A stretch of 64,000 nt of DNA from Pseudanabaena sp. BC1403 (lineage in GTDB: Bacteria; Cyanobacteriota; Cyanobacteriia; Pseudanabaenales; Pseudanabaenaceae): contig NZ_PDDM01000017.1 of assembly GCF_002914585.1 (NCBI RefSeq), positions 1 to 64,000 of the forward strand. Reading direction: 5' to 3'. Numbering within the stretch: the stretch's first letter is position 1; the number at the start of each line of letters is the position of its first letter. The position numbers and the translations under genes are program-made. Below, in pieces: positions 1,378-36,884 of this stretch. Under the pieces are notes generated by a model that saw nothing but the letters and a program-made list of their open reading frames with translations, had not been told where the DNA came from and made no database searches.

Positions 1378-1480
1378 ATACCAATTCACAAAAGTGTGAC
1401 AACACTTCTGTGAATTAAAAACCAAACCCTGTAAGGGTTTTAAAAACACAAAATGGCTGCGCCACTTTGTGTTTTGGTAT
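1378..1480 (+). repeat. 103-bp palindromic interspersed element, copy 1
   Basis: Begins ATACCAATTCACAAAAGTGT and ends CACTTTGTGTTTTGGTAT. It contains three short hairpins in series: AATTCAC..GTGAATT, AACCCTGTAAGGGTT, and AACACAAAATGG..CCACTTTGTGTT. It sits just beyond the amylase stop. Other copies are at 4942, 18196, 20019, 34674, 36502 and 36782. Confidence 0.9.
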
Positions 1481-4941: not shown

Positions 4942-5044
4942 ATACCAAAATACAAAATGGCGTAGCCATTTTATGTTTTTAAAACCCTTACTGGGTTTGG
5001 TTTTTAATTCACGAAAGTGTTGCCACACTTTTGTGAATTGGTAT
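4942..5044 (-). repeat. 103-bp palindromic element, copy 2 (reverse)
   Basis: Same element as at 1378 in the opposite orientation. It starts ATACCAAAATACAAAATGG and ends TTTTGTGAATTGGTAT, exactly 103 bp, flanked by TA on the left. Confidence 0.9.
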
Positions 5045-9008: not shown

Positions 9009-9069
9009 CATAAAACCCAAGAATTGATTGGCGGCGCTTCGCGCCGCCAATCAATTCTTGGGTTTTATG
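9009..9069. repeat. 61-bp perfect hairpin, 29-bp stem
   Basis: CATAAAACCCAAGAATTGAT continues through GGCGGCGC, a TTC loop and the exact complement. It is not at a gene end, so a simple terminator role is unlikely. Confidence 0.85.
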
Positions 9070-18195: not shown

Positions 18196-18298
18196 ATACC
18201 AAAACACAAAGTGGCGTAGCCATTTTGTGTTTTTAAAACCCTTACGGGTTTTTGTTTTTAATTCACAGAAGTGTTGTCACACTTTTGTGAATTGGTAT
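18196..18298 (-). repeat. 103-bp palindromic element, copy 3 (reverse)
   Basis: Starts ATACCAAAACACAAAGTGGC and ends TTTTGTGAATTGGTAT; 103 bp. It lies between the LysR and TrpD-like genes. Confidence 0.9.
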
Positions 18299-19322: not shown

Positions 19323-19363
19323 GAGATAAAAAATGCAGCGCTTAGCGCTGCATTTTTTATCTC
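19323..19363. terminator. 41-bp perfect hairpin
   Basis: GAGATAAAAAATGCAGCGC, TTA loop and complement. The right end overlaps the stop codon of the 19362-19772 gene. Confidence 0.8.
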
Positions 19364-19772
19364 ATTTAACTAACGATTCGCCGAAAGTACGAATTGTGGG
19401 CAATGTATCGGTAAACCAGCCTAGCCCCAGTCCAGCTCCAGCAATTAAAGCAAGAACAAAGAAATTCCAGCCACGATTGTTCATGAAAGCGCGAAGTTCA
19501 TTTCTTGCAACATACATAAGTAGCACCCAAACTACGCTAATCCCTAGTGACAATACAAACTGCGACTTTTGATAAAACACAAATATTATCGCTGCGATCG
19601 CCCAGCCTACTGAGAACAGCCATTCCACACCAAAGGCGATCGCCCCAGAGGGAATCCAAATTCGCCAATCTGCCTTGTGGATAGAAAGCAGCCAACCATA
19701 GGCAATATAACCAACCAAAACTAGAGCAAGCGATAGGATCGGTAATTTTCGTATGGTACGCATATTTTGCAT
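19362..19772 (-). CDS. Unrecognised four-helix membrane protein
   Basis: Not recognised. The 136 residues contain about four hydrophobic helices: around 11-30 (ILSLALVLVGYIAYGWLL), 40-67, 71-88 and 101-118 (WNFFVLALIAGAGLGLGWF). Conserved-looking polar residues are few. The gene is on the minus strand between the LysR gene and a repeat cluster. The start could be Met4 (MRTIRKLP) rather than Met1. Confidence 0.7.
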   Translation of the reverse strand: MQNMRTIRKLPILSLALVLVGYIAYGWLLSIHKADWRIWIPSGAIAFGVEWLFSVGWAIAAIIFVFYQKSQFVLSLGISVVWVLLMYVARNELRAFMNNRGWNFFVLALIAGAGLGLGWFTDTLPTIRTFGESLVK

Positions 19773-19864
19773 CTTCAGAGTTAAAGTATTAGTTTCAGGT
19801 TATAACGTAAAATCGCCACATCTATAGCATTTTGCAGTCTAAAATTTGGGGATTCATATTTGAT

Positions 19865-19972
19865 CCAAACCCTAAAAATGGCGTTACCATTTTTAGGGTT
19901 TACAACCCTTGCTGGGTTTTGGTTTTAATCACTGAAAGCGTGACTAAACTTTCGGTAATCAAACCCCAAAAT
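19865..19972 (-). repeat. Diverged relative of the 103-bp element
   Basis: It has the same three-hairpin order as the 103-bp family in reverse orientation. The first stem is AACCCTAAAAATGG..CCATTTTTAGGGTT and the last is GATTACCG/CTTTCAGTGATT, so both arms have changed while pairing is kept. The centre AACCCTTGCTGGGTTTTGG stays recognisable. Confidence 0.6.
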
Positions 19973-20018
19973 AGCAATGGCGGCGCTTAGCGCCGCCATT
20001 GCTATTTTGGGGTTTGAT

Positions 20019-20121
20019 TTTTTAATTCACAAAAGTGTGACAACACTTCTGTGAATTAAAAAATCAAACCCTGTAAGGGTTTTAAAACACAAAGTGGCGT
20101 AGCCACTTTGTGTTTTGGTAT
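20019..20121 (+). repeat. 103-bp palindromic element, copy 4, altered left end
   Basis: From AATTCACAAAAGTGTGACAA to TTTTGGTAT it matches the family, but the left terminus ATACC is replaced by sequence shared with the adjacent GC-rich hairpin (GGTTTGATTTTTT). Confidence 0.85.
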
Positions 20122-21448: not shown

Positions 21449-21793
21449 ACTTCCTTTAAAACGTTTGAAAACGTTGCGATCACACCACGAAAACAACAAA
21501 AATATCTTATAACTCAGATTCTATCTTATGTCATGTGTATTTTTGTGTACCATAAATATATCTAATGAGTAATTATACGGATCGAATTAGTTGTAACTGT
21601 CACTTAGTACACAGACAACGTGATTAATTCACATGTTCCCTAGCTCCAAAATGAAAGTCTAGGCTTTGTAAAATTTTTGTTTTTTACAGCGCGTTGCATC
21701 TAAACACAAACCAATAAATATCTTAAAAGTCTTGCTTTGCAGGACTTTTAAGATATTTATTGTGATTAATTTGATCGCAAATTGCCGCAAGTC
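21449..21793. other. 345-bp spacer with one AT-rich hairpin
   Basis: Holds the promoter side of the small gene-desA pair and the hairpin at 21712-21762. No other gene is seen. Confidence 0.5.
21712..21762. repeat. AT-rich hairpin, CAATAAA family
   Basis: CAATAAATATCTTAAAAGTC, loop, complement to TTTATTG. It belongs with similar hairpins at 29005 and 31795 that share ACCAATAAA..TTTATTGTG ends. Confidence 0.75.
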
Positions 21794-28931: not shown

Positions 28932-29004
28932 GAGGTTTTCAGCGCCGCAGATACTAAAAACCCCAAAAACCTTTTTATACAGCGCTTTGTGCTTAAGACC
29001 GAAC

Positions 29005-29055
29005 CAATAAATTTTTTAAAAGCACTGCTAAGCAAAACTTTTAAAAAATTTATTG
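29005..29055. repeat. AT-rich hairpin, CAATAAA family
   Basis: CAATAAATTTTTTAAAAG, 15-base loop, complement ending TTTATTG; same ends as 21712 and 31795. Confidence 0.75.
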
Positions 29056-29117
29056 TGTTTTTTGATCAGATTTTGATCAGATATTGTTGTAATTAGAATT
29101 GCTGTCATCTAATCTTT

Positions 29118-31775: not shown

Positions 31776-31794
31776 ATATAATTTGCTCAAACCC

Positions 31795-31855
31795 GAACCA
31801 ATAAAATTTTTAAAAGTGTTGCTTTGCAACACTTTTAAAAATTTTATTGTGGTTC
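31795..31855. terminator. 61-bp hairpin between menB and Uma2
   Basis: GAACCAATAAAATTTTTAAA.. pairs nearly perfectly around a TTT loop. The right arm forms the last codons of the convergent Uma2 gene. Confidence 0.8.
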
Positions 31856-32571: not shown

Positions 32572-32664
32572 AAAAGCAGAGATTTAGATCTCCGACTTTT
32601 TTTGTGCATTTACAGATTGACTTTGCTTGCGTAGAAAAAGTCGGAGATCTAAATCTCTGCTTTT
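32572..32664. repeat. Long hairpin with 29-bp arms
   Basis: AAAAGCAGAGATTTAGATCT.. and its complement separated by about 35 bases, upstream of the 43-residue gene. Confidence 0.8.
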
Positions 32665-34519: not shown

Positions 34520-35044
34520 GGCTTACTGTCAGGCATTCAAGCTATTTATATCCATCATATAGCAATCTCTATATTGCTTAACCCAGAAAACAAAGAGGGA
34601 GGCAACACCAACTATGTTGTTGGCATATTGGGTGACATAGCTATCGACTCTATCGAGATACCAAAATTGATTCTTACCAATTCACAAAAGTGTGACAACA
34701 CTTGTGTGAATTAAAAAGCAAACCCTGCAAGGATTTTAAAAACACAAAGTGGCTACGCCACTTTGTGCTTTGGTATAACTGGGAAGAGATTAATATATTT
34801 TTAGGGATTTGCGAAAGCAATTAAATGTTTGATTTGCTTGATTTATTTATTGAACTTAATTAATCAAACCTTAATTTAACGACCACTAATGTTTGATTTG
34901 TTTGAATTATTGGTTTTGCAAGTAGAAGTAGTGCAAAATTTTTGAATATGACATTGCTACATCCCATAAAATTTTAGGAACATTTAGTTTAGATATACAG
35001 TCATTCAGGGATATACATAAATATGTATAGGAGAAAAACTCAAA
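34520..35044. other. 525-bp spacer with one repeat copy
   Basis: Separates divergent ribBA and the SLH gene. It contains 103-bp element copy 5 and an AT-rich stretch (34790-34990) with near-repeated TTGTTTGATTTG phrases. No other gene is seen. Confidence 0.55.
34674..34776 (+). repeat. 103-bp palindromic element, copy 5
   Basis: From TTACCAATTCACAAAAGTGT to TTTGTGCTTTGGTAT, 103 bp with a few substitutions (CTGCAAGGATTTT, GGCTACGCC). Confidence 0.85.
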
Positions 35045-36501: not shown

Positions 36502-36604
36502 ATACCAATTCACAAAAGTGTGACAACACTTCTGTGAATTAAAAACCAAACCCTGTAAGGGTTTTAAAAACACAAAGTGGCGTAGCCACTTTGTGTTTTG
36601 GTAT
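36502..36604 (+). repeat. 103-bp palindromic element, copy 6
   Basis: Starts ATACCAATTCACAAAAGTGT and ends CACTTTGTGTTTTGGTAT; nearly identical to copy 1. Confidence 0.92.
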
Positions 36605-36705: not shown

Positions 36706-36758
36706 AAACCCAAATTAATAAAGGCGGAGAGAAGCTCCGCCTTTATTAATTTGGGTTT
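36706..36758. repeat. 53-bp perfect hairpin
   Basis: AAACCCAAATTAATAAAGGC.. pairs exactly around AGAAG. It lies between two 103-bp copies. Confidence 0.85.
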
Positions 36759-36781: not shown

Positions 36782-36884
36782 ATACCAATTCACAAAAGTG
36801 TGACAACACTTCTGTGAATTAAAAACCAAACCCTGTAAGGGTTTTAAAAACACAAAATGGCTGCACCACTTTGTGTTTTGGTAT
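36782..36884 (+). repeat. 103-bp palindromic element, copy 7
   Basis: Starts ATACCAATTCACAAAAGTGT and ends CACTTTGTGTTTTGGTAT, direct repeat of copy 6 at 280-bp spacing. Confidence 0.92.

Follow-up and report, generated by a model that had tools for sequence, protein, structure and literature searches.

The IS1031 group of insertion elements is characterized by a TNA target duplication. Nezha is reportedly a MITE of cyanobacteria, going by the title under which Zhou described it in 2008; it resembles the family described here as a cyanobacterial MITE, a likeness drawn from that title alone and not from sequence. Tourist is a name for MITEs of the PIF-Harbinger type. In the available part of the source, PIF/Harbinger elements have a TWA target duplication (PMC4482050). 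The present family resembles Tourist / PIF-Harbinger and IS5-type MITEs in being short and non-coding, with inverted ends, a 3-bp TWA-like duplication and an intergenic placement. It differs from them in that its TACCAA ends were not found around the transposases examined, in its three internal palindromes and in a duplication that is TNA and not strictly TWA.

REPINs are extragenic hairpin elements mobilised by RAYTs. In the portion of the literature available, compensatory changes were common in REPIN hairpins, which were thought to act as single-stranded DNA and, as mobile hairpins, were read as favoured for their hairpin form (PMC3116915). The family shares with REPINs the extragenic hairpins, the many copies and the common compensatory changes. 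Unlike REPINs, it has a target duplication and three hairpins, and it was present at none of five Y1 loci.

Template switching has been published for rRNA genes (PMC8794818) and for yeast genes (PMC8604942). Its marks, as given in the accessible sections of these papers, are homogenised arms, instantaneous compensatory changes and loop inversion with arms longer than 9 bp. The hairpins of the first paper and the spacer inversion of the second resemble those described here in their instantaneous paired changes and loop inversion, the latter reported there only for arms above 9 bp. The published systems, as far as those sections go, are rRNA genes and yeast coding sequences, whereas the present one consists of mobile repeats and other hairpins in one bacterial genus. 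It is common to read covariation as proof that an RNA is functional.

A mobile 101-bp family in Pseudanabaena

The window, which is the whole stretch of 64,000 nucleotides analysed, belongs to contig C17 of a draft genome of 5.5 Mb. It holds six canonical copies of a 103-bp family, a hybrid copy (copy 4) and a diverged element. The element proper, TACCAA...TTGGTA, is 101 bp long and contains three hairpins, H1, H2 and H3; the terminal inverted repeats TACCAA / TTGGTA are found at both ends of the canonical copies, which are listed here with the basis of each assignment.

1379-1479, plus strand: canonical copy with target site duplication (TSD) TAA (sequence, flanks)
4943-5043, minus strand: canonical copy (sequence, alignment)
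18197-18297, minus strand: canonical copy 3, with TTA on both sides and a site that is empty in four relatives (flanks, relatives' sites)
34675-34775, plus strand: canonical copy (sequence, alignment)
36503-36603, plus strand: canonical copy with TSD TTA (sequence, flanks)
36783-36883, plus strand: canonical copy (sequence, flanks)

When up to three mismatches were allowed, a 28-nt core matched at 149 places in the whole genome and the reversed pattern at none; the family has roughly 150 copies in this genome. The repeat was present in all 26 Pseudanabaena genomes searched (this one and 25 of 25 others). Outside the genus it was found in one of 32 genomes, as a marginal match (E 0.00097). An identical 3-bp sequence stood on both sides of 180 of the 232 copies for which both flanks were available, in every case TNA (100 TTA, 67 TAA, 8 TGA and 5 TCA), a duplication of the IS5 / PIF-Harbinger kind. 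At the site of copy 3, all four relatives looked at (G008, G018, G019 and G010) have the same flanks, a single TTA and no element. Target duplications and clean empty sites demonstrate that the family has been mobile. A comparison of the flanks of fetched copies gave 11 matching pairs, which include one locus twice and some chance matches inside arrays.

The 103-bp family is a non-autonomous, MITE-like insertion, a new family of a known kind. Among the best-ranked literature matches, in a search whose coverage excluded most subscription papers, nothing described the repeat by title or abstract, and no paper combined Pseudanabaena, MITE and transposable.

PF13359 had no matches in this genome, and the eight loci listed for PF01609 there showed no convincing pair of TNA+TACCAA ends. 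The same was true of NF033580 and PF13340 among the matches listed for the genus (30 each). The inverted ends detected at the 14 loci of IS5-type transposases that were tried differ from TACCAA. Pairs of TACCAA ends lying 0.6-3.5 kb apart were considered as candidate autonomous partners; in the four that were inspected (L160, L225, L209 and L292) the ORFs were, by eye, not transposases. A looser pair bounds a 1001-bp stretch (L357:1130-2130), which has TTA and TACCA at both ends and lies near a 96-aa fragment matching PF01609; the stretch starts with the end of an ordinary copy, and beyond TACCA its two ends diverge. The five Y1 transposase loci in the genome had no nhmmer match of the element, so that a linked RAYT (Y1), as in a REPIN, was not found.

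The diverged element

The diverged element and its hairpins were delimited as follows.

About 19864-19967, minus strand: diverged member of the 103-bp (101 bp plus TSD) three-hairpin family with degraded ends (alignment to the seven window copies, 66% to the reference; partial genomic relatives)
19867-19901, minus strand: H3, with 15-bp perfect arms (sequence, fold)
19904-19918, minus strand: H2, AACCC/GGGTT (sequence, centroid fold)
19927-19960, minus strand: H1, with 9 of 12 pairs Watson-Crick (sequence by eye; eight pairs in the fold)

Read on the minus strand, the element aligns over its full length to the 103-bp family in the order H1-H2-H3, which bears out the original prediction, made from the letters at 19865-19972, that the three-hairpin order is kept. 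The same prediction held that the outer stems differ in sequence and still pair. This is true of H3, the arm sequence of which is unlike that of canonical H3: AAACCCTAAAAATGG (19867-19881) is perfectly complementary to CCATTTTTAGGGTTT (19887-19901) across a 5-nt loop. It is true only in part of H1, which has partly decayed, its 12 pairs comprising, by eye, nine Watson-Crick pairs, two G.T and one C.A. The 108-nt stretch folded at -36.7 kcal/mol against -19.6 (sd 2.9) for shuffled sequences (z -5.8; none of 200 as low). Its termini no longer read TACCAA...TTGGTA and no target duplication was seen at the element, which is an old member of the family, damaged at its ends and probably immobile.

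The site is empty in the relatives G008 and G018, and in G010 a different GC-rich hairpin stands in place of the element. In G019, where the flanks match, only H3 and the GC-rich hairpin are present. Comparison of G019 with this genome by eye showed three paired substitutions in H3 (C-G to T-A, C-G to A-T and A-T to C-G); the GC-rich hairpin had two, together with a paired indel. Unpaired changes at the locus, also judged by eye, are restricted to the innermost pair or the loop of each hairpin.

The GC-rich hairpin and copy 4

On the opposite side of the GC-rich hairpin from the diverged element lies copy 4.

19957-20019, no strand assigned: GC-rich hairpin with 31-bp perfect arms, the core of a second repeat family, family B (sequence, family B listing, orthologue in G019)
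20010-20071, plus strand: lengthened H1 hairpin of copy 4, with 29-bp arms over the left terminus (hairpin arm-length measurement)
20021-20120, plus strand: copy 4, with the right end intact (TTGGTA, then TTA) and the left TACC missing (sequence, alignment)

The arms of the GC-rich hairpin (19957-19987 / 19989-20019) are 100% complementary. An arm end of this hairpin had been said to replace the left terminus of copy 4. The hairpin does adjoin copy 4 and the left TACC is missing, but a better description of the supposed hybrid is an H1 hairpin, adjacent to the family B core hairpin, with a left arm that extends across the left terminus. The H1 arms of copy 4 (20010-20038 / 20043-20071) are 29 bp long with one mismatch; the arm length was 15 in 170 of 237 H1 hairpins and at least 21 in seven. 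The stretch left of H1 now repeats, in inverse form, the linker and H2 arm on its right. The missing left end of copy 4 is an H1 arm grown from 15 to 29 bp, and a template switch through H1 may have made it. Lengthened H1 arms similar to those of copy 4 were found in L110, L113 and L224, and the copies at L112 and L116 adjoin a family B arm, as copy 4 does.

An 'AATC' in the linker of copy 4 was considered as copied from the flank; this was dropped, as it also occurs in other copies (e.g. L023) and at family B ends. At L226:7770-7835 there is a solo H1 hairpin with 31-bp arms and the inverted left terminus on both sides.

Covariation in the family

The 742 nhmmer hits included 322 of nearly full length, or 292 once duplicates were removed; the 233 with E <= 1e-20 were aligned and gave 223 distinct rows, so that counts on the tree leave out the 59 weakest, most diverged copies. 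A second alignment of 57 rows was made up of 60 diverse copies chosen by script, minus L166, L223, L255 and L271:835-937, plus the diverged element. In these 57 sequences RNAalifold, unaided, placed the three hairpins in the same places, with changes on both sides in 16 of 22 pairs, and 95.0% of the cells were pairing against 83.9% when shuffled.

The excess of compensatory changes over chance, on which the original prediction depended, proved significant. Double-changed cells numbered 113 in the 57 rows against 22.6 when shuffled (none of 500 as high) and 247 in the 223 distinct copies, where shuffles averaged 42 and reached 58 at most. On the tree there were 82 doubles of any kind, compared with 8-17 once partners were slid. 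Event numbers from the tree are rough, given its basis of about 103 columns and possible recombination among the copies. Such a tree basis, the possibility of recombination and the several variants common to many copies are what would be expected if the covariation were an artefact of subfamily structure or of recombination between copies, in which paired states inherited as blocks are counted repeatedly. This is very improbable. Slid-partner controls keep the relatedness of the copies, yet gave 18-27 double-changed cells in the 57 rows, and paired changes were seen directly at orthologous single loci. Among orthologous family copies, L246/L260 and L106/L109 each have one paired change, the latter pair together with an inverted H3 loop.

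Double events from one Watson-Crick pair to another on the 223-copy tree numbered 23 in H1 and 47 in H3 (23 and 51 with other tie-breaking), with none in H2 or the terminal stem. H2 is the stem most conserved in sequence, yet it has no complementary double events. Only the long hairpins, H1 and H3 with their arms of about 15 bp, covary. What this demonstrates is the upkeep of pairing between arms; it does not demonstrate selection of an RNA. The paired changes mostly concern single pairs (68 of 71 hairpin-branch cases), and 15 of 74 doubles are pair flips (A-T to T-A or C-G to G-C).

Transcribed RNA as a possible selected form

The original prediction took covariation of this kind to imply selection on structure rather than on sequence, and the structure so selected could be that of a transcribed RNA such as a terminator, an mRNA stabiliser or a small RNA. 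Besides the strength of the covariation, this reading is consistent with the placement of the family between genes. Of the 193 copies that were classified, three fell within an ORF; 52 had convergent genes on either side and 30 divergent ones (ORFs were taken from our own script, and 40 of the 233 copies lay at an edge and were left unclassified). Orientation relative to co-directional genes was even (56:52), which argues against it. So does the search of Rfam, in which no family reached the gathering threshold for the repeat and the only match in the window was a tRNA, and so do the lack of covariation in H2 and the absence of copy 3 from its site in four relatives.

The G-U preference expected of a structured RNA was not found in H1-H3. 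Single changes away from pairing on the tree gave G-U to A-C counts of 41:55 in H1, 49:51 in H3 and 15:17 in H2, or 105:123 for the three together (p 0.26). On the transcribed strand of copies between co-directional genes, G-U was no commoner than A-C (76:81, p 0.75). A lean towards G-U, as the RNA reading would have it, was seen in the terminal stem (31:14) and in hairpins outside the family, with 17:9 in 43 of 50 orthologous pairs, though not in a looser comparison (20:18). Selection on transcribed RNA is improbable. A family present in 26 genomes of one genus shows strong covariation, in its long hairpins only, without an RNA strand preference in H1-H3.

Proposed arm-to-arm copying and possible selection on DNA structure

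We lean, on balance, towards the reading that paired changes in the long hairpins arise mostly at the DNA level, by arm-to-arm copying (template switching), with selection on structure secondary. A base in one arm of H1 or H3 would mutate; the arms may then fold onto each other at replication, and the polymerase could switch template so that one arm is copied onto the other. The same process could invert loops. It could also lengthen arms past the end of the element, which would account for the lost left terminus of copy 4. Both the copying as cause and the secondary place of selection are what we infer from comparing sequences.

Arm-to-arm copying is favoured because loops occur in both orientations, because doubles in hairpins outside the family are all complementary and because the arms of family B pair. 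The H3 loop was GTA in 75 of 223 copies and the inverse, TAC, in 56; TGC was found in 34 and GCA in five. Eleven loop inversions in H3 and seven in H1 were reconstructed on the tree. Loop inversion and arm change as one event was rejected, as no association was found (H3, one of 49 branches, p 0.73; H1, none of 22).

In 50 pairs of hairpins at orthologous sites, 28 of 28 doubles were complementary, beside 43 singles, and the mirrored flanking columns used as a control had 24 doubles and 365 singles. A looser comparison of 64 orthologous pairs gave 45 doubles, all complementary, and 60 singles. Four of 54 pairs were dropped as too dissimilar from the first set and 29, beside the 64 used, from the second; both tables partly retain reciprocal rows, and some flanks are themselves repeats. 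Loop inversions were found in 14 of 64 rows of the looser comparison (two of them reciprocal duplicates by eye) and in two of 50 pairs of the first, where the test seeks a bare 3-nt loop first and under-calls. The 51-nt hairpins of L124/L126 are identical except for an inverted loop.

Family B hairpins were found 41 times by pattern search in the fetched loci, with TTAGGACA/TGTCCTAA outside in 19 of the 41; the search pattern specified the ends and the GC core but left the intervening arm free. In 37 distinct hairpins, 514 of 518 pairs were Watson-Crick, and the arms differed at 53% of positions (gapless). The arms are hypervariable, yet 34 of the 37 are perfect over the pairs tested.

The main rival to template switching is selection on DNA structure, under which only copies with a well-folding H1 and H3, as single strand or cruciform, would be mobilised; spreading lineages would keep their pairing and old copies decay. 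Changes per site numbered 6.8, 5.1 and 9.3 in the stems of H1, H2 and H3, against 13.0 and 14.6 in the linkers and 23.5 and 25.7 in the loops of H1 and H3. Stems slower than linkers and long-hairpin loops are expected under such selection and weaken template switching, because pure copying does not predict them. Doubles were also relatively commoner on internal branches (in H3, 18 doubles to 19 pair-breaking singles, against 29 to 134 on terminal branches), which is expected if mismatched copies spread less and likewise weakens template switching. Seven of the 50 orthologous pairs carried family motifs and had three single changes and no double, a count that again favours selection over copying. 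The rival also accords with the lack of G-U bias in H1-H3, because strand symmetry is expected where DNA is the selected form, and with the common compensatory changes of REPIN hairpins thought to be single-stranded DNA, as given in the part of PMC3116915 available. Against it, complementary doubles are absent from H2 and the terminal stem, which are part of that one predicted fold, paired changes occurred after insertion at an orthologous site (G019) and in non-family hairpins, and inverted loops are left unexplained. On this evidence we regard selection on DNA structure as the chief cause as possible but rather doubtful.

Arm-to-arm copying is weakened further because loop inversions and doubles fall on different branches, because doubles are mostly single pairs and not multi-base bursts, because one-sided gaps in the 50 orthologous pairs outnumber two-sided ones by 31 to 2 and because non-family hairpins and the terminal stem lean to G-U. 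The conclusion drawn in the original prediction from covariation is not confirmed, in that H2 and the terminal stem have no complementary double events, G-U is not preferred in H1-H3, loops are found in either orientation and non-family hairpins carry complementary doubles. These patterns fit DNA-level copying between arms at least as well as selection. Some constraint on the stems is likely, because they change more slowly than the linkers and most loops.

More tentatively, Pseudanabaena may have an unusually active arm-to-arm copying at long hairpins, which would keep mobile and ordinary hairpins near-perfect while their sequence drifts; covariation would then be the signature of a mutational process and would not prove an RNA. 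Should template switching be the true cause, bacterial repeats could pass covariation screens without an RNA function, and the copies of the family would be a natural set for measuring the rate of the process.

Other hairpins and gene order

In L124/L126, L017/L230, L003/L305 and L237/L338, hairpins at corresponding sites differ in that the loop is inverted (nearly so, by eye, in the last pair), with flanks about 77-99% identical. In the window, family B occurs at 9014-9048, 19957-20019 and 36707-36741 in the form AAACCC...GGCGGCGC-loop-GCGCCGCC...GGGTTT. The ORF of G018 that is orthologous to window 19362-19772 contains an insertion of about 98 bp (L074:1217-1314), which carries a family B-like hairpin, and the frame appears interrupted there.

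Gene order among G000, G008, G018, G019, G010, G020 and G021 is strongly shuffled-looking, with about 8 kb shared around the diverged element. G020 and G021 were tried as a close syntenic pair and found to be of little use, with 14 blocks over 400 bp and 25.8 kb aligned in 200-kb stretches centred on one shared gene. A third hairpin repeat, ACCAATAAA...TTTATTG, is present in the window at 21697-21767, 28990-29060 and 31784-31854, with arms that differ but pair. An inverted repeat at 32572-32664 has 37-nt arms that are 92% complementary and 19 nt apart.
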